Source of the DNA: Ruminococcus sp.
GTDB lineage: Bacteria; Bacillota; Clostridia; Oscillospirales; Acutalibacteraceae
Assembly: GCA_022768065.1 (NCBI GenBank)
Contig: JALELS010000020.1
Span: 1-64,000, forward strand
Reading direction: 5' to 3'
Length of the DNA stretch: 64,000 bases
Shown here in pieces: positions 7,067 to 63,413 of the stretch (positions are counted from its first letter, which is position 1; every line of letters starts with the position of its first letter). Both the position numbers and the translations under genes were made by a program. Under the pieces are notes generated by a model that worked only from the letters and a program-made list of their open reading frames with translations, made no database searches and was not told the origin of the DNA.

Positions 7067-7300
7067 AAAAAAATTAAAGCCCCCGCAGGAAAAATCATCC
7101 TGCGAAGGCGCAAGTACGCGGTTCCACTTCGTTTTATAACTCATTATCCTTAACGCGGAAAACGTGCGAAGATACTTTATTTCCCTTCGCCTGCTCACGG
7201 ACGCACTTCGCAGCACGCATCTTTAAGGGCATTTCAGCACGTGTGCCCTCTCTCTAAAAAAGTGCGTAAAACTGCTACTCTTTCCGATCAAAGCATTTTT
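7067..7300 (-). promoter_or_regulatory. T-box leader (probably tRNA-Cys) controlling cysE-cysS
   Basis: Reading the minus strand, the leader begins near 7289 with GATCGGAAAGAGTAGCAG, the classic T-box 5' sequence. The T-box proper, AAGTGGAACCGCG, is at 7117-7129. An intrinsic terminator follows: arms at 7098-7109 and 7079-7090 (12 pairs) and a T-rich run at 7067-7078, just before the cysE ribosome site. Several TGC triplets lie in the Stem I region (about 7205-7245), compatible with a Cys specifier, but I could not fold Stem I with certainty. Known mechanism: uncharged tRNA binds the leader and stabilises the antiterminator. Confidence 0.93.
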
Positions 7301-44160: not shown

Positions 44161-44388
44161 TCAGATGGAAAAGATTTCGTATGTTACGGCTTTTTGATGC
44201 CCCGAAGCATATTTTTGATATGCGAGTTTGGGCAACGAAAAGTCCTGATATGCGTAAGATTTTACCACTTGATTTCAGAGGGAAAAGATTTCGTATATTA
44301 CGGCTTTTTGATGCCCCGAAGCATATTTTTGATATGCGAGTTCGGGCACCGAAAGGCCGTAAGATGCGTAAGATTTTACCTCTGAACG
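44161..44388 (-). repeat. Tandem structured repeat after kdgK, two copies, period 114
   Basis: Copies start at 44161 and 44275. Each holds CCCCGAAG, then the hairpin GCATAT/ATATGC, then CGAGTTYGGGC and ends ATGCGTAAGATTTTACC. The last bases of copy 2 include the kdgK stop codon. The same architecture recurs at 50323-50518. An 86-codon frame on the minus strand through both copies looks like a by-product of the repetition. Confidence 0.9.
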
Positions 44389-45473
44389 CGTGCACCCGCG
44401 CCGGATACGATATTCTCTACTTCTTTGAGCGACGCCATAGATGTGTCACCGGGCGTGGTCATTGCGAGAGCACCGTGAGCTATACCGTAATTTACGGCTT
44501 TGTCGGGGTCGCCGGTGGTCATAAGACCGTAGATAAGTCCGGAGGCGAAGCTGTCGCCGCCGCCTACACGGTCAAGAATTTCAAGTGAGGGAAGAGACAT
44601 ACCCTTATGAACGCTGCCGTCGGCATAGAGCATTGCGGACCAATCATTTATCGTCGCGGTTTTTACGGTACGCAGGGTGGTACCGATAGCCTTGAAATTG
44701 GGATATACCTTAACAACCTCGGAAAGCATTTTGCAGTATCCGTCGATATTGAGCTTTTTAAGATTTGCGTCGTTGCCCTCTACTTCAAAGCCGAGGCAGG
44801 CGGTAAAATCCTCCTCATTGCCTATCATAACATCTACATATTTTGCTATTTTTTTGTTTACTTCCTGCGCCTTTTCCTTGCCGCCGATGTCTTTCCAGAG
44901 GGACGGACGGTAATTGAGGTCGTAAGAAACGATTGTTCCGTACTTTTTAGCCGCTTTAACCGCCTCTATAACCACCTCTGCGGTAGTTTCGGAAAGTGCG
45001 GCAAAAATTCCGCCGGTGTGGAACCAACGAACGCCGAGTTCGCCGAAGATGTATTCCCAGTCAATATCGCCCGGCTTTAATTTTGAAACAGCTGTATTTC
45101 CGCGGTCGGAAACTCCGAGAGCTCCCCTTATACCGTAGCCTCGCTCGGTAAAGTTAAGACCGTTGCGAACCGTTCTGCCTATACCGTCGTAGGGAACCCA
45201 TTTGATGAGAGAAGTATCGACTCCGCCCTCTAACATAAAGTCCTCTACGAGCCTGCCGACTTCATTGTCGGCAAGAGCCGTAACAGCCGCGGTACGCATA
45301 CCGAAACAACGTCTGAGTCCTCTTGCAACGTTGTATTCGCCGCCGCCCTCCCAGGCTCTGAAAGAACGTGCGGTTTTAATTCTGCCCTCACCGGGGTCAA
45401 GTCTCAGCATTATTTCGCCGAGAGAAATCATATCATATTTGCATGAAGATGCGTCTTTTATTTTAAGGTCCAT
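44376..45473 (-). CDS. kdgK: 2-keto-3-deoxygluconate kinase (PfkB family)
   Basis: 365 residues. The glycine-rich start is SLGEIMLRLDPGEG, the substrate strand GGGEYNVARGLRR, and the PfkB signature DRVGGGDSFASGLIYG with the catalytic aspartate is near residue 315. It phosphorylates KDG to KDPG. The family also has fructokinases, but the neighbours eda, uxuA and the mannonate dehydrogenase support KDG. The C-terminus runs into the tandem repeat, which supplies the stop. Confidence 0.92.
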   Translation of the reverse strand: MDLKIKDASSCKYDMISLGEIMLRLDPGEGRIKTARSFRAWEGGGEYNVARGLRRCFGMRTAAVTALADNEVGRLVEDFMLEGGVDTSLIKWVPYDGIGRTVRNGLNFTERGYGIRGALGVSDRGNTAVSKLKPGDIDWEYIFGELGVRWFHTGGIFAALSETTAEVVIEAVKAAKKYGTIVSYDLNYRPSLWKDIGGKEKAQEVNKKIAKYVDVMIGNEEDFTACLGFEVEGNDANLKKLNIDGYCKMLSEVVKVYPNFKAIGTTLRTVKTATINDWSAMLYADGSVHKGMSLPSLEILDRVGGGDSFASGLIYGLMTTGDPDKAVNYGIAHGALAMTTPGDTSMASLKEVENIVSGAGARVQR

Positions 45474-45498
45474 ATTTATTCTCCTGAAACTGCTTGCA

Positions 45499-46347
45499 TT
45501 AAACTCCGGAATAAGCGTTAAATCCGCCGTCTACCGGAATTGTTGTACCGGTTATAAAGCCCGAATATTCCTCATCGCAGAGGAAGAGAAGCGTACCGTC
45601 AAGCTCGCTCGGCTCACCGAAGCGCTTCATGGGAGTTGCGGCAAGAATCTTGCCCGTACGCGCGGTGGGAGTGCCGTCCTCATTCCAAAGGAGCGTTTTA
45701 TTCTGATTGGTCGAGAAGAATCCAGGCGCTATTGCGTTTACTCTGATACCGACCTCGGCAAAATGAACCGCCATAAACTGTGTAAAGTTTGAAACTGCCG
45801 CCTTTGCAGCCGAATATGCCGGAATTTTGGTGAGCGGACGATAGGCGTTCATTGAGGAAATCATAACTATGCAGGTGTTTTCCTTCTGAGCCATATCGCG
45901 TGCAAATACCTGAGTCGGAATAAGCGTTCCGAGGAAATTGAGGTTAAACACGAACGAAATTCCCTGAGGGTCAAGGTCGAAAAATGTCTTGATGTTTTCG
46001 TCGTGCTGAGTTAAATCTATTTTTTCGAGGGTTTCTTTGGTGGTAGTTCCCTTGGGATTGTTGCCGCCCGCTCCGTTAAGAAGAATATCGCAGGTGCCGA
46101 GCTTTTCGTTTACAACCTCGCGCGCTTTCTGCATACTCTCGGGGTCAAGCACGTTGCAGCCCACGGCAATAGCCGTTCCGCCGTCGGCGGTTATCTCGTC
46201 AACCACCTTTTGAGCCGCCGCCTCGTTTAAATCAAGCACGGCAACCTTTACGCCCTGCTTTGCAAGCACTTTGGAGAAGTCTCCGCAGAGAACTCCGCCG
46301 CCGCCCGTAACAACTGCAACTCTGCCTTTTAAATTTTCGTGTTTCAT
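45499..46347 (-). CDS. SDR-family D-mannonate oxidoreductase (fructuronate reductase)
   Basis: 282 residues from the ATG at 46347 (MKHENLKGRV), with AAAGGA nine bases upstream. The NAD site is VTGGGGVLCG (unusually rich in glycine), followed by NGAGGNNP, the catalytic Ser in MISSMNAY and YSAAKAA (YxxxK). This SDR type replaces the long-chain UxuB in many Bacillota and interconverts fructuronate and mannonate. The position directly after uxuA supports this. Confidence 0.88.
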   Translation of the reverse strand: MKHENLKGRVAVVTGGGGVLCGDFSKVLAKQGVKVAVLDLNEAAAQKVVDEITADGGTAIAVGCNVLDPESMQKAREVVNEKLGTCDILLNGAGGNNPKGTTTKETLEKIDLTQHDENIKTFFDLDPQGISFVFNLNFLGTLIPTQVFARDMAQKENTCIVMISSMNAYRPLTKIPAYSAAKAAVSNFTQFMAVHFAEVGIRVNAIAPGFFSTNQNKTLLWNEDGTPTARTGKILAATPMKRFGEPSELDGTLLFLCDEEYSGFITGTTIPVDGGFNAYSGV

Positions 46348-46378
46348 AAAGTCCATTCCTTTCGGTTCGTACTTTTAA

Positions 46379-47443
46379 TTACTTTTTTGATTTTTCAACG
46401 GCTTCCCATAAACCGTTGAGGTATGCGGCGCCGAGCGCTCTGTCATAAAGTCCGTATCCGGGTCTTGCGACTTCGCCCCAAATCATTCTGCCGTGGTCGG
46501 GGCGCACATAGCCGTCAAATCCGACATCCTGAAGAGCTTTTACTATCTCGTACATATCGAGAGAGCCCTCGCTTGACTCATGAGCCGTCTCATTGAAATG
46601 TCTGCCCGAAACCTTGACGTTGCGAAGGTGAGCAAAATATATTCTGTCGCCGAATTCGCGTATCATAGCCGGCAAATCATTGTCTTTGTTTGCGCCGAGG
46701 GAGCCGGTGCAGAAAGTAATTCCGTTATACTTTGACGGAACAATGTCCAAAAGTTTTTTAAAGGAATCGCGCCCCGTTATAATACGCGGCAGACCGAATA
46801 TTCCCCATGGCGGATCGTCCGGATGTATCGCCATTTTGACGTCGCACTCTTCGCAGACGGGCATAAGCTTTGTAAGGAAATATCTGAGATTTTCCCAAAG
46901 GTCGTCGGCTGTTACGCCCTCGTATTTTTTGAACAGTTCTTTTATTTCGCCCATACGCTCCGTTTCCCAGCCGGGCATCGCGTAGCCGTTTGAATTATTG
47001 TCTATCTCGCGGAACATATCCTCGGGGGATTTGCCCTCTATCTGAGTGCCGTCATACGAAAGGCACGTGGCGCCGTTGCCCATATCCATGGCAAGGTCGG
47101 TTCTTGTCCAGTCGAAAACAGGCATAAAGTTGTAGCAAATAACCTTAACTCCGACCTTTGCGAGATTTCGTATGCTCTCAATATAATTTTCTATATATTT
47201 GTCTCTTGAGGGAAGTCCTATTTTTATATCCTCATGGACATTGACGCTCTCTATGCACTCCATGGTAAAACCTGCGGCAACTATCTCGTCGCGCATTGCG
47301 GTGACGTCCTCAAGACGCCAAGCTTCACCTGCCGGCAGATAATGAAGAGCCGGTACTATGCCGGTCACTCCCGGAATTTGCTTTATCTGCTCAAGAGTTA
47401 CGGTGTCCTTATCGCGGCCGAACCAGCGAAAAGTCATCTGCAT
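46379..47443 (-). CDS. uxuA: Mannonate dehydratase
   Basis: 354 residues, AGGAGG seven bases before the ATG. The family pattern is clear: MTFRWFGRDKDTVTLEQI at the start, then IPGVTGIVPALH, the metal-site segment AIHPDDPPW and the C-terminal DHGRMIWGE. It dehydrates D-mannonate to KDG. It is the first gene of the operon uxuA, mannonate oxidoreductase, kdgK, eda, pduL. A uronate isomerase is not in this window. Confidence 0.96.
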   Translation of the reverse strand: MQMTFRWFGRDKDTVTLEQIKQIPGVTGIVPALHYLPAGEAWRLEDVTAMRDEIVAAGFTMECIESVNVHEDIKIGLPSRDKYIENYIESIRNLAKVGVKVICYNFMPVFDWTRTDLAMDMGNGATCLSYDGTQIEGKSPEDMFREIDNNSNGYAMPGWETERMGEIKELFKKYEGVTADDLWENLRYFLTKLMPVCEECDVKMAIHPDDPPWGIFGLPRIITGRDSFKKLLDIVPSKYNGITFCTGSLGANKDNDLPAMIREFGDRIYFAHLRNVKVSGRHFNETAHESSEGSLDMYEIVKALQDVGFDGYVRPDHGRMIWGEVARPGYGLYDRALGAAYLNGLWEAVEKSKK

Positions 47444-47471
47444 AAATATGCCTCCTTTTTTCTTTTTTTAT

Positions 47472-47500
47472 ATTTTATCACTATCGCGCCGATATATCAA
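47472..47500 (-). promoter_or_regulatory. Promoter of the uxuA operon
   Basis: On the minus strand TTGATA (47495-47500) and TAAAAT (47472-47477) with a 17-base spacer. Confidence 0.75.
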
Positions 47501-47549
47501 TGAATTTAGATTAAAAAAGAGCGTCAAAGCGCAAAAAAATATTCCCCGT

Positions 47550-47588
47550 AAAAGAAAAAAGAGCCGTAAGACATATGTCTTACGGCTC
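47550..47588 (-). terminator. Terminator after the asnB-type gene
   Basis: Perfect 12-base arms GAGCCGTAAGAC / GTCTTACGGCTC with a loop of ATAT, then on the minus strand TTTTTTC. Confidence 0.92.
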
Positions 47589-47621
47589 ATGGTTGTACCA
47601 CGGAATATCGGCTTTACGCAA

Positions 47622-49466
47622 TCAGTTCTCGACAAAGTACTTTTCGTACCAGAGAATGAACGAATAAACCGACCATATTTTTTTCATATTGTGCGCTGTA
47701 CCGGCTTTGTGGTCGTTCAAAAGCTTCATTATATAGTCGCGGTTAAAGAATCTCGCCGCAACTTCGCCCTCGAATTTTTCTTTTACCATATTGTAATATT
47801 CATCGCGGCGAAGCCAATCGTTGAGAGGCGTTAAAAATCCGGTTTTTCTCATAGCGGCGGTCTGCGCGGGAAGCTCTTTTGCCGCGGCACCCCTGAGAGC
47901 TACCTTGGTAGTCTCTTTATTCACGCGGTATTCGGAGGGAATACGAAGAGCGATTTTGAGCATTTCCTTATCGAGGAACGGAACGCGAAGCTCCAGCGAA
48001 TTTGCCATACTCATTCTGTCCGCTTTTACGAGTATATCCTGCACAAGCCAGGTGCGAATATCGGCATACTGCATTTTGGTAATGTCGTCCTCGTTTTTAA
48101 CCTCGTCAAAAAACGGTTTTGTATACACGGCAGGGTCTTTCGACGGAATGTGCTTTGCAAGCACCTTATCGACGTCCTCGTGATTGTAAACGTAATTGTT
48201 GCGGATATAGCGCTCCTCTATCGGATATCTGCCGCGCGTCAAAAACCTCTTGCCGTGGAACGGGGGCATTTTTTCGGCAATACCGCCGAGCATATTGCGA
48301 AGCCACTGCGGAAGACGCATATATTTTGCGAAATCAAGCGGTTCGCGGTAATAATGGTAGCCGCCGAAAAGCTCGTCGGCGCCCTCGCCCGACAAAACCA
48401 CCTTCACCTGCTGTGAGGCGAGATTCGCGAGGAAATACAGTGCTATTGCCGAGGGGTTCGGGAGCGGTTCGTCCATATAATACTGAACCATGGGAGTAAT
48501 ATTAAAGTACTCCTCGGCAGTTATCTTTTTGGAAAAATTCTTGACGTTTTCGTGCCTTGCAAATTCCTGAGCGTGAGAGAGCTCGGAATATTTTTCCTCA
48601 GCGTAGCCTACGGAAAAGGTCTTTACATCATTGCGCTTTGCCATTTCGTGAACGACATAACTTGAATCGACGCCGCTTGAAAGGAAGCAGCCTACCTCAA
48701 CGTCGGAAATGCCGTGCGCCACGGTAGAGCCCTTAAAGGTCTCGTCAATAAGATCTTCCCAATACTCAATGGACTTCGTATCGTCAATATCATATTCGGG
48801 AGTAAAATATCTTTTGGTTTCAAATTTACCGTCCGAAAAGGTGAAATAACTGCCCGGCTCCATTTTGTATACGTTTTTGAACATAGTCTCGGTGGTCGGG
48901 ATATATTCAAAGCAGAGATAATCGGGAAGTCTCTCCTCATTGAGTTCTTTCTCAAACAGCGGATTTGACAAAAACGCCTTTATCTCGGAACCGAAAAGGA
49001 AGTTTCCGTCCTTGAGATAATAGAAAAACGGCTTTATACCGAATATATCACGCGCGCCGAAGAGCTTTTTCTCGGTGCTGTCCCAAATTACAAAGGCGAA
49101 CATTCCGCGCAGCTTGTTTAAAAGCTCGCAGCCGTACTCCTCATAACCGTGCAGCAAAACCTCGGAATCGGTCTTTGTGCGAAAAACGTGACCTTTTTTT
49201 ATAAGCTCTTCTCTTATGGGCTGATAATTGTAAATCTCTCCGTTGAATACGAGAACCTTTGTACCGTCCTCGTTAAGTATCGGCTGACTGCCGCCGTCAA
49301 GGTCTATTATGCTCAGACGGCGAAATCCGAGCGAAACGGACGAATCCACATAGTAGTCGTCCTGATCGGGGCCGCGGTGACGGATACGATCCGCCATATC
49401 TTTTATTATTTTCTTGTTTACAGACTTATCCGGTGTGTCATTGACATACCCTACAAAACCACACAT
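47622..49466 (-). CDS. asnB: AsnB-type glutamine-dependent amidotransferase (asparagine synthase family)
   Basis: 614 residues. The glutaminase half begins with the catalytic cysteine (MCGFVGYVND), and FNGEIYNY and RGMFAFVIWD are intact; the synthase half has the PP-loop SSGVDSS and LSGEGADELFGG. The classic reaction makes asparagine, but close homologues (B. subtilis AsnB, L. lactis AsnH) amidate peptidoglycan precursors. The neighbours here, an aspartate racemase and a D-Asp-ligase-like ATP-grasp, favour amidation of a D-Asp cross-bridge. Confidence 0.9.
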   Translation of the reverse strand: MCGFVGYVNDTPDKSVNKKIIKDMADRIRHRGPDQDDYYVDSSVSLGFRRLSIIDLDGGSQPILNEDGTKVLVFNGEIYNYQPIREELIKKGHVFRTKTDSEVLLHGYEEYGCELLNKLRGMFAFVIWDSTEKKLFGARDIFGIKPFFYYLKDGNFLFGSEIKAFLSNPLFEKELNEERLPDYLCFEYIPTTETMFKNVYKMEPGSYFTFSDGKFETKRYFTPEYDIDDTKSIEYWEDLIDETFKGSTVAHGISDVEVGCFLSSGVDSSYVVHEMAKRNDVKTFSVGYAEEKYSELSHAQEFARHENVKNFSKKITAEEYFNITPMVQYYMDEPLPNPSAIALYFLANLASQQVKVVLSGEGADELFGGYHYYREPLDFAKYMRLPQWLRNMLGGIAEKMPPFHGKRFLTRGRYPIEERYIRNNYVYNHEDVDKVLAKHIPSKDPAVYTKPFFDEVKNEDDITKMQYADIRTWLVQDILVKADRMSMANSLELRVPFLDKEMLKIALRIPSEYRVNKETTKVALRGAAAKELPAQTAAMRKTGFLTPLNDWLRRDEYYNMVKEKFEGEVAARFFNRDYIMKLLNDHKAGTAHNMKKIWSVYSFILWYEKYFVEN

Positions 49467-49481
49467 ATGCTGTTCCTTCCG

Positions 49482-50198
49482 TTATTCTTTGATTTTCTTG
49501 CCGCAAAGCTCTATGCTTCTGCGCGCCAAGACCTCCATGGAGTCTATAATTTTGCTGTCTTTTTTTGAAAGACTGAAATCCTTGTCGATTATCGACAGCT
49601 CGGTGCAGCCGAGTATAACGGCGTCGCACCCCTGCTTTTTCATATTGCCGATAATTCTCATAAATTCAAATATATCGACCTTTTCGCCCGCCTTGACTTC
49701 GCCGTAAATGATATTCATAAGCGACTTTTTGTCCTCTTCGTCGGGCAGTTTGCATTCTATGGAATACTTGTCGGCGACACGCTCGTACGCCCCGGATTTT
49801 ATAGTACCCTCCGTTGCCAAAATTCCGAGTGTTTTAAGGCCGGGAACCGTCTTAATGGCGTACTTTACGGTCTCCTCTATAATGTTGATTATCGGAATAT
49901 CGACGTTTTTCTGTATCTCGTCATAAAAATAGTGCGCCGTGTTGCAGGGTATAACTATATAATCGCACCCTGCCGCCTGAAGCTTTTTTGCGTCGGCAAT
50001 CATAACGGGAAGCGGATTCGGCTTTGAGTGGTCGAGAATATAATCGGTCCTGTCGGGTATCGCTCCGTGATTTAAAATGACCATGGAGATGTGTTCCTGA
50101 TCGGTCTTGGCATCTGTCATTTTGACGACAAGATCCGCAAAATATATGGTTGCGAGCGGTCCTACGCCGCCCAGAACACCGAGAGTTTTTTCTTCCAT
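49482..50198 (-). CDS. racD: Aspartate/glutamate racemase family protein
   Basis: 238 residues. The two catalytic cysteines are in VIPCNTAHYF (about residue 80) and ILGCTELSI (about residue 190), with GGVGPLATIYFADL at the start. The enzyme is cofactor-independent and likely makes D-aspartate. It lies 15 bases before the asnB-type gene, so they are probably co-transcribed. The call of aspartate over glutamate rests on family likeness and context. Confidence 0.88.
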   Translation of the reverse strand: MEEKTLGVLGGVGPLATIYFADLVVKMTDAKTDQEHISMVILNHGAIPDRTDYILDHSKPNPLPVMIADAKKLQAAGCDYIVIPCNTAHYFYDEIQKNVDIPIINIIEETVKYAIKTVPGLKTLGILATEGTIKSGAYERVADKYSIECKLPDEEDKKSLMNIIYGEVKAGEKVDIFEFMRIIGNMKKQGCDAVILGCTELSIIDKDFSLSKKDSKIIDSMEVLARRSIELCGKKIKE

Positions 50199-50322
50199 TT
50201 TTTGAGGTGTCCTTTCTTTCGGCTCAATTTCGTGAGCTTAGTTATTTTTTATCTAATTGTGTTTTAACGAAAATTTATATAGCGGCCGGCAAACAAAAAA
50301 TGTGCTTTTCCGCTGTTGCTGA

Positions 50323-50518
50323 CCGTGCATTTTCAGCGCCCCGAAGTGTACGAAGGTACTCGAGAGGACGATAAAGATGCGGAGTGCGTATTATCTTTAG
50401 AAACCTTTGCTTAAATATTTCCGAGAATGCGTGCAGCCGTGCATTTTTGACGTTCCGAAGTGTACGAAGGTACTCGAGTGGACGGCAAAAAAGTGCGGGG
50501 TGCGTATTATCAGAAATA
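50323..50518 (-). repeat. Tandem structured repeat after the D-Asp-ligase-like gene, two copies
   Basis: Copies start at 50323 and 50437 (offset 114-116). Each has CCGTGCATTTT, then CCGAAG, a hairpin GTGTAC-GAAG-GTAC, CTCGAG, and GTGCGTATTATC. Copy 2 meets the stop codon of the upstream gene. The layout matches 44161-44388. This is the whole content of the 311-base gap between the ligase-like gene and the racemase; no ORF with a ribosome site is seen here. Confidence 0.9.
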
Positions 50519-51721
50519 TTTGCGGAATTTACGGAACTGATTGATATAAGCCGCTCTCGCGTAAAAATTATGCTTGAGATTGCGGTCGGCGGAGTAAAAC
50601 AGAGGTTCGGAGACCTTGCCCTCGGACCAGAGCTTTAAGGCAAGGGACTTAAAATCGCTGTCGGGAACATACTTTTTGATTACGCCTTTGGGAACAACCG
50701 TGTAAAGATTTATATTGTCGGCTACGGTGTAATCATCAAGCTTATGATAAATATAGTCGTCAACAATCCATTTAACGGTGTTAAAACCGCTGCCCGTAAC
50801 ATAGAAATTACTTCTGCCGAGACGGACATTTATTTCAAAGAACTTGAATTTGCCGTCGCGCTCGTCGTATTTTATGTCGAAGTTTGCAAAACCCGTGTAG
50901 CCGATATGCTCAAGGAATTTTGTGGCGGCGGCAACTATTTCGGGATTCACCTCGTTAACTATGGCAACGGGGTTGCCTATCGCCGTGGGGGTGTGATCCT
51001 CAAGCAGAGTTCTGCCGAGAGAGGCAAAGCGCACCTTGTGGTTCTGATCGCAATAGCAGGTCAAAACACGCATATACGTATCGTCGCCGGGAATGCAATC
51101 CTGTATGAGAAATTTATAGTTGTAGCTTGATTTTTCAAGCTTTTCGAGCATATCGCGGAGTTCTTTTTCGTTATTGAAGCGGAACACCTTTTTCTTGCCC
51201 TCGAATTTGGCATAATGATACATAGCTGAGTTTGCGGGCTTTGCTATAACGGGATAATCGAAGTCAAATTTGAGGTCGTTTTCCTTGCCGCACTCATACA
51301 CATATGTCTTGGGGTAATTAAGCCCCAGTTCCTCAAATATCTCGTAGAACTTATCCTTGAGTACAATTTTATTTAAAAGGTCAAGGTCGATATACGGAAT
51401 AATGTAGTACGGGGAAAGCTCCTGCTTGCTCTCTATGAGCGCTCTGACGTACCAATCGCCGCAGCCTAACACGATAAGCTTCTTTTTGCCCTCAAATTCC
51501 TTGCCAACCTCTATAAGATGCTTTACAAGAACCTCTTTCTTTTCAAGGCCCGGGAATATTCTGTTTTCTATAATATCGGAATTGGCTATATAGCCGCCCT
51601 CCGACATACTTAATACGAGTGATTTAATACCGTATTCCTCGTGGAAGCTCCTCGCGAGAGAATACGCGGTTATATCGGCGCCGAGTATTACCGGTAAAAA
51701 TTCCTTTTCCTGGAACTGCAT
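50510..51721 (-). CDS. ATP-grasp carboxylate-amine ligase resembling D-aspartate ligase
   Basis: 403 residues. The start QEKEFLPVILGADITAYSLA and the following FHEEYG match my memory of Enterococcus/Lactococcus D-aspartate ligases. The ATP-grasp domain follows: DFDYPVIAKPANS (Lys-containing lid), FLIQDCIPGDDTYMRV and the metal site FFEINVRLGRSNFY. Such ligases add the beta-carboxylate of D-Asp to the lysine side chain of UDP-MurNAc-pentapeptide. A near-perfect promoter lies upstream, and a racemase and an amidotransferase lie downstream. Confidence 0.82.
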   Translation of the reverse strand: MQFQEKEFLPVILGADITAYSLARSFHEEYGIKSLVLSMSEGGYIANSDIIENRIFPGLEKKEVLVKHLIEVGKEFEGKKKLIVLGCGDWYVRALIESKQELSPYYIIPYIDLDLLNKIVLKDKFYEIFEELGLNYPKTYVYECGKENDLKFDFDYPVIAKPANSAMYHYAKFEGKKKVFRFNNEKELRDMLEKLEKSSYNYKFLIQDCIPGDDTYMRVLTCYCDQNHKVRFASLGRTLLEDHTPTAIGNPVAIVNEVNPEIVAAATKFLEHIGYTGFANFDIKYDERDGKFKFFEINVRLGRSNFYVTGSGFNTVKWIVDDYIYHKLDDYTVADNINLYTVVPKGVIKKYVPDSDFKSLALKLWSEGKVSEPLFYSADRNLKHNFYARAAYINQFRKFRKYF

Positions 51722-54671: not shown

Positions 54672-55388
54672 ATGTTTTGTAAATATTGCGGTGCGGCTTT
54701 GCCGAAAGACGCGGAAATATGCCCGAATTGCAGCAGACCCGTCAGTCAGCCGAGCGTCGCGCAAACCGAAGTTCCGAAGTCGGACGCAAATCACAACGGG
54801 CAAAGCGAGCCTTTGCACTACACAAACGGGGCTTCTCCCGTTAATTTTAAAGAGCAAAACGCTCATTACAGACCCGAGAGCTGTAATGAGACTTTGCCAC
54901 CGCAGCACGGAGCCGACGGATACTACGGTTCTCAGCCGTACAATCCGGTAAATAATCAATATAACGCTCCCGTAGGGAACGAGCCTTACCGCCGAAACGG
55001 GCAGGGGCAGTATAACAGTTACAATCAAAACTATAATCAAAACGGCGGTGCGTTTAATCCTCAGACATACCGCAATCCCAACGAAAAGGCAAGCGTGGGG
55101 CTGTGCATTGTCTCCGTACTTTTCCCGATTGTCGGTCTTATACTCTTTTTGATTCAGAGAGATGATACTCCGCGCGCCGCAAAATCATACATCATCTGTG
55201 CCGGCGTAAGCTTTGCCGTTCAGATATTTTTTACGATAATTTTTACGCTCATTCTCTGGTTTGCAACCTGGGCTGCCGTTCCGTACTCGGATAATTTCGG
55301 AGATTACGGCTACGATTACAGCTTTGAAGAGACGTCAAAACTGCTTTCCGCTGCGGCTTCTGCATTAATAAAGCTCTTCATAAAATAA
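54672..55388 (+). CDS. Zinc-ribbon membrane protein
   Basis: 238 residues from the ATG at 54672. The first 20 residues form a zinc ribbon (CKYCG...CPNC). Residues about 25-135 are low-complexity, rich in Asn, Gln, Tyr and Pro. A membrane domain follows with two segments (about 145-165 and 175-205), in the layout of DUF4190-like proteins. Function unknown. AGGGTGA precedes the start. Confidence 0.8.
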   Translation: MFCKYCGAALPKDAEICPNCSRPVSQPSVAQTEVPKSDANHNGQSEPLHYTNGASPVNFKEQNAHYRPESCNETLPPQHGADGYYGSQPYNPVNNQYNAPVGNEPYRRNGQGQYNSYNQNYNQNGGAFNPQTYRNPNEKASVGLCIVSVLFPIVGLILFLIQRDDTPRAAKSYIICAGVSFAVQIFFTIIFTLILWFATWAAVPYSDNFGDYGYDYSFEETSKLLSAAASALIKLFIK

Positions 55389-55430
55389 AGCGCCTATAAA
55401 ATTATGCAAAAAGCTTAAAACGTATAAAAC

Positions 55431-61130: not shown

Positions 61131-61946
61131 TTATTTTGCGAGAGCAGCAACCTCAAGCATATATGTACCTATCTGGCCGCCGAATTCGGGAGCACCGTCC
61201 ATGATAAGATGACCCGTCTTTACCGCCTCAAGCATATCATCTGTGCCGAGGAGTATTCCGAGCGCACTGTCAAGGTTGTCAAAGCGCAAGGTGAAGAACG
61301 GCATAGCACGCTTATAATCGCCTCTGCCTGCTCTTGACTTACCGGCTTTAATGCGTAGATACGCGGAAACCGACGGATAACCGTCAACCGCCCATGCATA
61401 AACACGGTCGGGGCTCTTGCTGGTCCAGTCGTGAATATCCTCGTGACCCATCTTGTTGAGCTGGCTTATACCGCTTGACAAAAGATAGAAGAAGCACTTA
61501 ACCATAAGCTCTTTTGTTGCCTCGTCCTTCGGAGCCTCGGTTGCGCCGAGAAGCGACGACATTTTAAGTAGCGTCATTAAGAATGCCTTGAACGCACCGA
61601 AGTGTGTTACGACGCCTTTCATCTTAGGCAGAGTCGCAGGTGACATCTTACCCTTAAAGAATGCGTTCATAGCCTCAACGCTCTTAAATTCAAGCTCAAC
61701 GTGAGGATTGGGGTCAACCCTGTTTAAATGGACAAGCCATTCATCGCTGTTTACAACAAAGTGCATACCGACTTTGCCGCCGGGAGCGTCCGGGTCTTTG
61801 GCACTTACCTGGATAATGGCATGAACGTGCGCGAACTGCTTTTTAAGCGAGGGTACATCGTTCGCAATTACCTTAACAAGCGGTAAGGCTGCATTAAAGA
61901 ATATTTTATTTGAATATAATTCTTCTTTTGTATGCAAATTTTTCAC
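61131..61946 (-). CDS. SCP2-like (sterol-carrier fold) protein of unknown role
   Basis: 271 residues from a GTG behind GGAGAG. The middle part looks like an SCP2 fold: HFVVNSDEWLVHLNRV, PHVELEFKSVEAMNAFFKGK and a C-terminal helix. This assignment is from pattern only. No signal peptide and no membrane segment. It may bind a hydrophobic ligand. Confidence 0.55.
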   Translation of the reverse strand: MKNLHTKEELYSNKIFFNAALPLVKVIANDVPSLKKQFAHVHAIIQVSAKDPDAPGGKVGMHFVVNSDEWLVHLNRVDPNPHVELEFKSVEAMNAFFKGKMSPATLPKMKGVVTHFGAFKAFLMTLLKMSSLLGATEAPKDEATKELMVKCFFYLLSSGISQLNKMGHEDIHDWTSKSPDRVYAWAVDGYPSVSAYLRIKAGKSRAGRGDYKRAMPFFTLRFDNLDSALGILLGTDDMLEAVKTGHLIMDGAPEFGGQIGTYMLEVAALAK

Positions 61947-62081
61947 TCTCCTTTTTTGAGGATTTTATTTGCTCGAAAGCGCGAAAAATCACAACGAATT
62001 TTCCGCCGAAGCGGTACGCCGAAACCGAAAAAGCACCGGCATACCGTTAATAATTTAAGCGATGTATTAAACAATCTCCGA

Positions 62082-62400
62082 TCGTTTAACAGACTTTGGA
62101 GAAAACGGATTAAAGCTCCGCTGCCACGTACTGTGGCACGACAGAGATCGGTTAATTCGTTTTATCAAAGAATACCTTGCAAAAATTATTTTGTTTGATA
62201 GGCTTTAGAGAAAACGGATTTAAGTTCCGCCGCCGCGTACTGTGGTACGACAGAGATCAGTTAATTCGTTTTATCAAAGAATACCTTGCAAAATTTATTT
62301 TGTTTGATAGACTTTAGAGAAAACGGATTAAAGTTTGACCGCCGCGTACTGTGGTACGTAAGGGAAAAATTAATTCGTTTTATCAAAGATTATCGGACAA
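62082..62400 (-). repeat. Tandem repeat of three ~109-base units after transketolase
   Basis: Units start at 62091, 62200 and 62309. Each has GAGAAAACGG, a hairpin CGTAC-TGTG-GTACG, and TTAATTCGTTTTATCAAAG; the outer parts AAACGGATTAA and TTAATTCGTTT also pair. It fills most of the 456-base gap 61947-62402, and the third unit stops at the transketolase stop codon. No gene is seen in the gap. Confidence 0.93.
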
Positions 62401-62402
62401 AA

Positions 62403-63413
62403 TCAGACCTCATCGTCCCAGTTGTCGTCTAACTCAAAGTCCTTATGCATAAGCTCACGAACCGCCTCGATTATGCCGTTGGCGTCGATGCCGACCATGG
62501 ACATAATGTCCTCGTGGAGACCGATGGGAGCGAACTTGTCGGGGTGACCGAGCTTCTTGAAGGCGCAGCCCTTACCGGATTCAACAACAACCTCGGCAAC
62601 GGCAGAGCCGAGACCGCCGATTATGTTGTGGTCCTCAACCGTGATTATACGACGAGTATCCTGAACAGCCTTTAAGATAGCCTCTTTATCGATGGGCTTA
62701 ATGGTGTGCATATTGAGCACGCGAACCTTAAGTCCGTCTGCACTCTCAAGGAATTTGGCAGCCTCACGAGCCTGGAATACACAGGAGCCGCAGGCTATTA
62801 CGGTAATGTCGGTGCCGGGATGAACCTCAACAGCCTTACCTACTTCAAAGCCGTAATCCTCATTATCATAAAGAACACGGTCAAAGCCGCGGTTAATTCT
62901 GATGTAATACGGGCCGAAGTTTTCATAAGCGGCGCGAACCGCATTTGCCGTCTCATAACCGTCTGCCGGGCAGATAACGGTGAGATTGGGCATAGCTCTT
63001 GTAACCGCAAGGTCAACAATAGCGTGGTGAGTAGAACCCGCCTGACCGAAAGAGGTGCCGGAATGCGTAGCTATAATTTTAGCGTTGACATTCTGATAGC
63101 AGATATCGGTGTGCAACTGATCTGCCGCACGAAGTGATGCAAATACCGAGAAGGTGGAAGCAAAGGGAACGAGCCCCGCTCTTGCCATACCTGCCGCTAC
63201 GCCGATCATATTCTGCTCTGCGATACCGACATTGAAAACTCTGTCGGGGCACGCATTTGTGAAGTCCTGAAGCTTTGTGGAGGTTGCAAGGTCAGCTGTG
63301 ACCGCAACTATTTCTTTATGCTCCTTGGCAAGGTCCGCCAAGGTTTTTCCGTAAATCTCCGAGGTGGAAAGCTCGGGAGTCTCAATTACGTTATATACAA
63401 ATCCGCCTGCCAT
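62403..63413 (-). CDS. Transketolase, C-terminal (pyrimidine-binding) subunit
   Basis: 336 residues. It has VTADLATSTKLQDF, NVGIAEQNMIGVAAGMA (with the catalytic glutamate), SGTSFGQAGSTHH and the C-terminal domain VEDHNIIGGLGSAVAE. It works with the N-terminal subunit, TAATG-coupled upstream, to exchange two-carbon units in the pentose-phosphate pathway. The split form is common in Clostridia. Confidence 0.95.
   Translation of the reverse strand: MAGGFVYNVIETPELSTSEIYGKTLADLAKEHKEIVAVTADLATSTKLQDFTNACPDRVFNVGIAEQNMIGVAAGMARAGLVPFASTFSVFASLRAADQLHTDICYQNVNAKIIATHSGTSFGQAGSTHHAIVDLAVTRAMPNLTVICPADGYETANAVRAAYENFGPYYIRINRGFDRVLYDNEDYGFEVGKAVEVHPGTDITVIACGSCVFQAREAAKFLESADGLKVRVLNMHTIKPIDKEAILKAVQDTRRIITVEDHNIIGGLGSAVAEVVVESGKGCAFKKLGHPDKFAPIGLHEDIMSMVGIDANGIIEAVRELMHKDFELDDNWDDEV

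Follow-up and report, generated by a model that had tools for sequence, protein, structure and literature searches.

The 64,000-nt window analyzed here (positions 1 to 64,000 of contig JALELS010000020.1, Ruminococcus sp. assembly GCA_022768065.1) carries tandem arrays of units of about 110 nt at the stop codons of three genes. Well-kept units fold across almost their full length as one imperfect hairpin with a conserved tip, and this tip is also found at the end of long hairpins in Rickettsiales, Coriobacteria, Eremiobacterota, Desulfovibrio and others. Usually, a unit borders directly on the stop codon of the gene antisense to the tip-bearing strand (the tip strand), often pairing the stop codon into the stem. 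We give about an even chance to the explanation that the family is a non-autonomous mobile palindromic element resembling the repetitive extragenic palindromes (REPs). Two tandem repeats of one bacterium are thereby tied to a repeat family spanning several phyla, which appears to be a little-known kind of mobile palindrome and not a peculiarity of one pair of genes.

A preliminary description of the window had reported two tandem pairs with a period of 114 at each place, and both were found as reported; the common plan it had proposed (TTTTTGAYG, CCGAAG, hairpin, CGAG, GG-C and RTGCGTA) is visible in the units, all of which carry the tip on the plus strand. Array 1 consists of the distal unit u1 (44161..44272; 78.2 bits with the model R2; plus-strand fold z -7.2) and the gene-proximal unit u2 (44275..44386; 88.0 bits; z -10.5), whose right arm contains the stop codon and the last codons of a kdgK-like PfkB sugar kinase gene (44376..45473, minus strand). 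Array 2 comprises the decayed distal unit u3 (50309..50403; 46.4 bits; z +0.1), an exception to the full-length fold, and the gene-proximal unit u4 (50423..50518; 84.3 bits; z -5.2), whose right arm contains the stop codon of a D-Asp-ligase-like ATP-grasp gene (50510..51721, minus strand; weak Pfam matches). The last copy of each pair had been said to meet the minus-strand stop codon of its neighbour, and it does contain it, the lowest coordinates of the two genes being 44376 and 50510. The plus-strand fold energies are -55.5 kcal/mol for u2, -43.4 for u1 and -37.2 for u4. Array 3 (62081-62404, period 109) is additional to the four copies of the preliminary description, with a most distal unit at 62081..62188 (26.4 bits, E = 0.008), a middle unit at 62190..62295 (36.7 bits, E = 1.2e-5) and a gene-proximal unit at 62299..62404 (55.4 bits, E = 8.1e-11; z -6.7), all on the plus strand; the gene-proximal unit abuts the stop codon of a transketolase C-part gene (62403..63413, minus strand).

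Because blastn does not connect arrays 1 and 2 with each other at E ≤ 10, the link was tested with a sequence profile built from 24 units of other species. This profile holds no row from the source genome but is not wholly independent of it, since the 24 units were originally found with a model built from that genome's units; it recovers all four copies (50417-50520, E = 1e-17; 50322-50395, 4e-12; 44285-44375, 6e-10; 44171-44260, 1e-8), in agreement with the earlier claim of one family across both loci. Array 3 was recovered in parts (62211-62249, E = 8e-4; 62339-62365, E = 0.012), the next match having an E-value of 1.1. Throughout the source genome, R2 finds 15 tip-strand units at seven loci, each an array of two or three (weakest E = 0.008), and one more copy was seen by eye at the V-ATPase locus. 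The genes preceding the seven loci are the PfkB sugar kinase gene, the ATP-grasp gene, the transketolase C-part, the gene for the V-type ATPase F subunit, an APH-like gene and two others, which we take from their sequences to be smc and a small gene next to an rsmH/mraW-like one. The top R2 score belongs to the copy at the stop codon in 7/7 arrays of the source genome, as also in the genomes G020 and G024 and in the smc array of G031, though not in the transketolase array of G031; a G013 array interrupted by the end of its contig was excluded from this comparison.

The short hairpin of the preliminary description pairs as claimed, but it is only part of a larger paired region that takes up most of the unit. 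A well-kept unit shows the conserved tip CCGAMGYGTAYnnnnRTACRCGAGNGG or variants of it, fixed mismatches, and arms that are variable in sequence yet paired. The proposed compensation is borne out by strong covariation, with double changes in 45 of 51 pairs. Among 34 units from 14 genomes, 321 alignment cells show double changes, against 134.7±8.9 in shuffled and at most 149 in slid controls, and 75.1% of the cells are paired, against 58.5% shuffled and at most 48.2% slid; the structure was derived from the same 34 sequences and therefore has an advantage over the slid controls. Pairing is mostly absent at two positions ten pairs apart, where G-A is commonest (columns 12/102, GA in 19/34; columns 22/91, AG in 14/34), and in many units they bracket the box GTGCGTGC, which is present on both arms and pairs via tandem G-U. 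Covariation recurs in Eremiobacterota, where 20 of the 24 matches were aligned (94.3% of cells paired; 113 double-change cells vs 31.0±4.8), and in 12 units of Coriobacteria/Eggerthellaceae (89.7%; 94 vs 31.5±4.5). The conserved, compensated fold thus stands, although a folded single DNA strand is as consistent with it as the structured RNA first proposed.

Part of this covariation may come from template switching, a process able to generate and preserve hairpins (PMC8794818). At the extreme, the units would be old, functionless palindromes that stay paired solely because templates are switched as the DNA is replicated. The outer Eremiobacterota arms (columns 2-19) contain 91 double, 9 one-sided and 32 unpaired cells, and the rarity of one-sided changes suggests that both arms change together; moreover, the inverted copy extends into the coding sequence by 8 nt at kdgK, 9 nt at the D-Asp ligase and 8 nt at smc. 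Nevertheless, functionless palindromes leave the cross-phylum tip and the fixed distance to the stop codon unexplained. They also do not account for the conserved boxes that flank the variable arms of Coriobacteria on both sides, which imply that these arms are not simply copies of the target, or for the strand-biased G-U excess described below, for which strand-biased mutation is a possible cause. We consider this explanation very improbable.

In 39 of 40 units, folding is better on the tip strand than on the complementary one. G-U pairs outnumber A-C pairs 174:37 in Fimenecus, the putative genus (Candidatus Fimenecus) of the source genome (28 of 32 units usable), and 32:2 in Rickettsiales (7/8 units), as counted on an alignment treating G-T and A-C alike; the units are related, and the p-values computed for these ratios hence overstate the significance. 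The many one-sided G-U states of Fimenecus favor the tip strand and suggest selection on its fold, so that, judging from these alignments, the fold of the tip-bearing strand seems to matter there. Strand-biased mutation may also be the source of the Fimenecus excess, and base composition points both ways: third positions of the sense strand are G-poor (G 339, C 677) with T exceeding A, and intergenic sense DNA has G 97 and C 82.

The better fold and the G-U excess of the tip strand would also suit a trans-acting or antisense RNA, transcribed toward the 3' end of the gene and working in its folded form, with tandem copies raising the dose. Promoter-like sites do lie on the plus strand to the left of arrays 2 and 3 (50122-50150 and 61873-61902), but their number is close to chance expectation, and the plus strand at array 1 has none. 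In Rickettsiales, the tip strand is oriented oppositely relative to the left gene, and no Rfam family matches the units at the gathering cut-off, either in the window or in 15 foreign loci, which gave RNase P and tRNA only. Matches below the cut-off include MIR2646 (27.6 bits against a cut-off of 245) and others. Likeness to a K-turn, SRP RNA or small ribozymes was considered in general terms and set aside. Such an RNA thus appears improbable.

The positional rule is clearest in Fimenecus, where the left neighbor lies on the minus strand in 39/39 unit rows and the right neighbor in 36/38; both exceptions concern atpF, a single place at which the gene caller took another frame. The neighbor listing overshoots the hairpin ends, and gene strands alone were taken from it. 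In 27 of the 34 Fimenecus rows, the unit contains or adjoins a stop codon; the rows include orthologous sites, and single rows may be wrong because the gene caller picks the longest nearby frame. For argJ, 8/8 rows tested have a stop codon matched by the far arm (six TGA, two TAA), a ninth unit (L062, G021) being excluded from the test; among all gene-proximal rows, 13/26 show a full far-arm match of the stop codon, with the register visibly mischosen in some smc rows. In the window, the far arm of u2 matches the last 6 coding nucleotides ahead of the kdgK-like stop codon and two of the three stop letters, and that of u4 the last 6 coding nucleotides of the D-Asp-ligase-like gene. The distance from the tip center to the stop codon of the antisense gene is 90-96 nt in Coriobacteria/Eggerthellaceae (8/11 rows), 48-55 nt in Eremiobacterota (15/21) and 61-69 nt in G074 (5/7). 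By eye, most of the Coriobacteria/Eggerthellaceae loci L221-L229 show another conserved hairpin, short and TTCCGCCGTTCGTTAGAACGGCGGAA-like, which separates the long one from the stop of the gene. We abandoned the notion of the element providing Coriobacteria proteins with new C-termini, since these ends appear native, one of them presumably being a GroEL-like tail.

The preliminary description had offered a 3'-UTR element as one functional reading. The units do reside at gene 3' ends, although their better-folding strand is antisense to the gene. As a cis-acting mRNA element of the host, the sense hairpin at the stop codon would slow the terminating ribosome or block 3' exonucleases, thereby tuning operon expression. 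The location between co-directional genes in Fimenecus, the matching of both TGA and TAA by the far arm and the best score of the gene-proximal copies are in line with such a role, as is the reported stalling of ribosomes at Escherichia coli REPs ≤15 nt from a stop codon (PMC12306157). However, the sense strand folds worse in 39/40 units, presence is erratic between sister species, the units of G067 lie mostly between convergent genes according to open reading frame calls, and the role has no need of a tip conserved across phyla. No intrinsic terminator (GC-rich stem with a T run) was found inside the three window arrays, and the three regions held 0, 1 and 1, about as many as expected by chance. 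We regard a host mRNA element as unlikely, although an mRNA role of the hairpin may be either the main rival of a mobile element or its later consequence.

The preliminary description had made its family depend on matches beyond the first four copies and on covarying pairs. In addition to the covariation above, the 15 units of the source genome are joined by matches in other species, the family occurring in 15/39 genomes of Candidatus Fimenecus at E ≤ 0.001. The model R1 matches 0/23 genomes from other families of the order, and a model of the tip matches 1/397 other Bacillota genomes at E ≤ 1e-6 with strict filters. Of 38 smc-ftsY sites found, 30 were read: six have the element, one (G007) has a half and 23 have none, the latter comprising 16 gaps of 11-72 nt and seven with other inserts. 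The half unit of G007 (L256) is cut near the loop and is apparently a deletion remnant. Related other inserts of 530 and 661 nt occupy the hairpin-free gaps in L241 (G010) and L242 (G008), and the smc-ftsY gap seems insertion-prone. On a tree of 30 smc C-parts, including 13 carriers of the element (the carriers G014 and G015 are absent from it), the presence of any unit requires nine gains or losses, and carriers are not clustered beyond chance on this tree (149/500 shuffles as low). Genome G009 contains two further copies, with identities of 96% and 88% over ~215 nt. Units of a subtype whose tip is longer (GGCGTAC/GTACTCC) lie off stop codons at L077, L079 and L081 (G009) and L080 (G008); in G009 they form dispersed, near-identical copies together with flanking palindromes.

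The exact tip pattern was found in 33 stretches of the genome collection, five of them from Fimenecus; by eye, the tip sits on a longer stem in 27 of the other 28, all except Chromohalobacter (L102). These stretches share the tip by construction, and the independent evidence is therefore the paired arms. The tip model, scoring at most 150 candidates per genome, gave 67, 42, 16, 14, 11, 9, 8, 8, 7, 6, 6, 5, 1, 1 and 1 matches in 15 carrier genomes at E ≤ 0.01, the four highest in genomes of other phyla. Like all counts from the genome searches, these are lower bounds, and carriers outside the genus were selected for having the tip. The viral collection has 0 stretches with the tip pattern, and spread by viruses is thus unsupported.

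The empty sites, the differences between sister species and the 67 copies in one genome together favor a mobile REP-like palindrome, the better of the two functional readings first offered. Such an element might spread as a folded single strand, namely the tip strand as single-stranded DNA or RNA, and an enzyme would recognize the tip and insert the element just behind stop codons. Local duplication would then produce the tandem arrays, in which the copy at the stop codon would be the youngest or best kept, and intrastrand template switching would copy one arm onto the other and could extend the palindrome past the stop codon as far as the last codons. The G-U excess of Fimenecus might be added by selection for the tip-strand fold. 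A specific enzyme is indicated by the tip kept across phyla and by the tight placement, which, together with the poor fit of the enzymes considered below, favors a mobile REP-like palindrome that acts via a folded single strand. Somewhat short of an even chance is the wider proposal of cross-phylum mobile palindromes that are defined by their tip instead of their ends, are inserted at stop codons in fixed orientation via a folded strand by a widespread, unrecognized enzyme, and absorb the stop codon into their stem.

Several observations weigh against a mobile element. Several species have units at the same orthologous positions (argJ, smc, transketolase), which old inheritance with loss would fit too, and any target-site duplication is indistinguishable from arm copying. 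Six or seven of the 34 Fimenecus rows lie off the stop codon, namely the C11 locus of the source genome (49 nt), one array truncated at the end of its contig, four copies dispersed in G008 and G009, and perhaps L252 (8 nt, rough coordinates). Contrary to the antisense rule, the left gene in Rickettsiales is co-directional with the tip strand in 6/6 cases, the right side being mixed, and three lineages lack the G-U excess: Coriobacteria/Eggerthellaceae (21:31; 12/12 units), G074 (24:27; 7/7) and Eremiobacterota (39:32; 21/21). Furthermore, no mobilizing enzyme was found among the two protein families tested, Y1_Tnp and RVT_1. A Y1/RAYT transposase was rejected, as 11 of the 25 carriers searched have no Y1_Tnp match and a unit clearly adjoins only 1/20 Y1 loci (L170, with weaker matches at L177 and L182). 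A reverse transcriptase was likewise rejected, with RVT_1 matches in 12/30 carriers and 3/9 non-carriers of the genus, leaving 18/30 carriers without.

RAYT-like proteins seemed enriched in element-positive Fimenecus, and the G008 site matching L170 (L060) has the same protein start. By eye, a RAYT-like gene of G009 harbors copies of a separate GTAG-type palindrome. This short palindrome, of the form GTAGGGCGGGGGCTTGCTCCCGCC and like a classic GTAG REP, looks by eye to be an ordinary REP of Fimenecus relatives, and it also occurs at 2795-3007 of L170 and in intergenic DNA of L050, L058, L059 and L071. Elsewhere in the window, a T-box leader lies on the minus strand at 7101-7300 (107.4 bits against an Rfam cut-off of 93), and a small tandem repeat of 2.2 copies with a 17-bp period at 55367-55402.

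Among known systems, the attC sites of integrons are located behind a stop codon, recombine through their bottom strand, which is folded and has extrahelical bases at fixed places, and carry the core sites RYYYAAC and GTTRRRY at their ends. What the units have in common with them is a folded strand that is antisense to the gene in front and located right behind the stop codon of that gene. However, their conserved part is the tip, no such core sites were seen by eye as shared ends in the alignments A4, A6 and A7, and the neighbors are housekeeping genes instead of cassettes, making an integron-like recombination site highly improbable. As for miniature inverted-repeat transposable elements, the unit ends are inverted but differ between loci, and duplications are inseparable from arm copying. 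We found no published description of the family in open-license PMC papers, which is no claim about print at large. REPs are 20-40 bp long with an unpaired GTAG end and are tied to RAYT transposases, which mobilize them, and pairs of them can fold into larger hairpins (PMC3733652). Like REPs and REPINs, the units are dispersed, intergenic, located downstream of genes, hairpin-forming and non-coding, but they are ~110 nt long with a conserved tip and variable ends, no GTAG end is shared in A4, A6 and A7, and no RAYT gene flanked by the repeat consistently accompanies them (11/25 and 1/20, as above). CGTC-tagged REPs, including Rickettsia RPE-4/6 and Neisseria dRS3, have stems of 8-9 bp, loops of 4-5 and a CGTC end, and are described as palindromic, present in several phyla and lacking a dedicated transposase (PMC3733652). 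The units resemble them in the latter three respects and differ in having stems of ~45 pairs; no CGTC end is shared in A4 and A6. Since the units differ in these respects from both the GTAG and the CGTC kind, we conclude that the element works like a REP rather than being one. The enterobacterial ERIC/IRU and RU-1 to RU-3 repeats, of 103-168 bp, are intergenic and called mobile (PMC2759123); compared by description only, ERIC/IRU resemble the units in length and intergenic location, and the portion of that description compared here mentions neither the tip nor the stop rule. The units thus offer natural material for studying the spread of palindromes and the upkeep of hairpin pairing by template switching, as well as the effects of a ~45-pair hairpin at the stop codon on translation and mRNA ends, and their positional rule at stop codons is sharper than in the published descriptions compared here.

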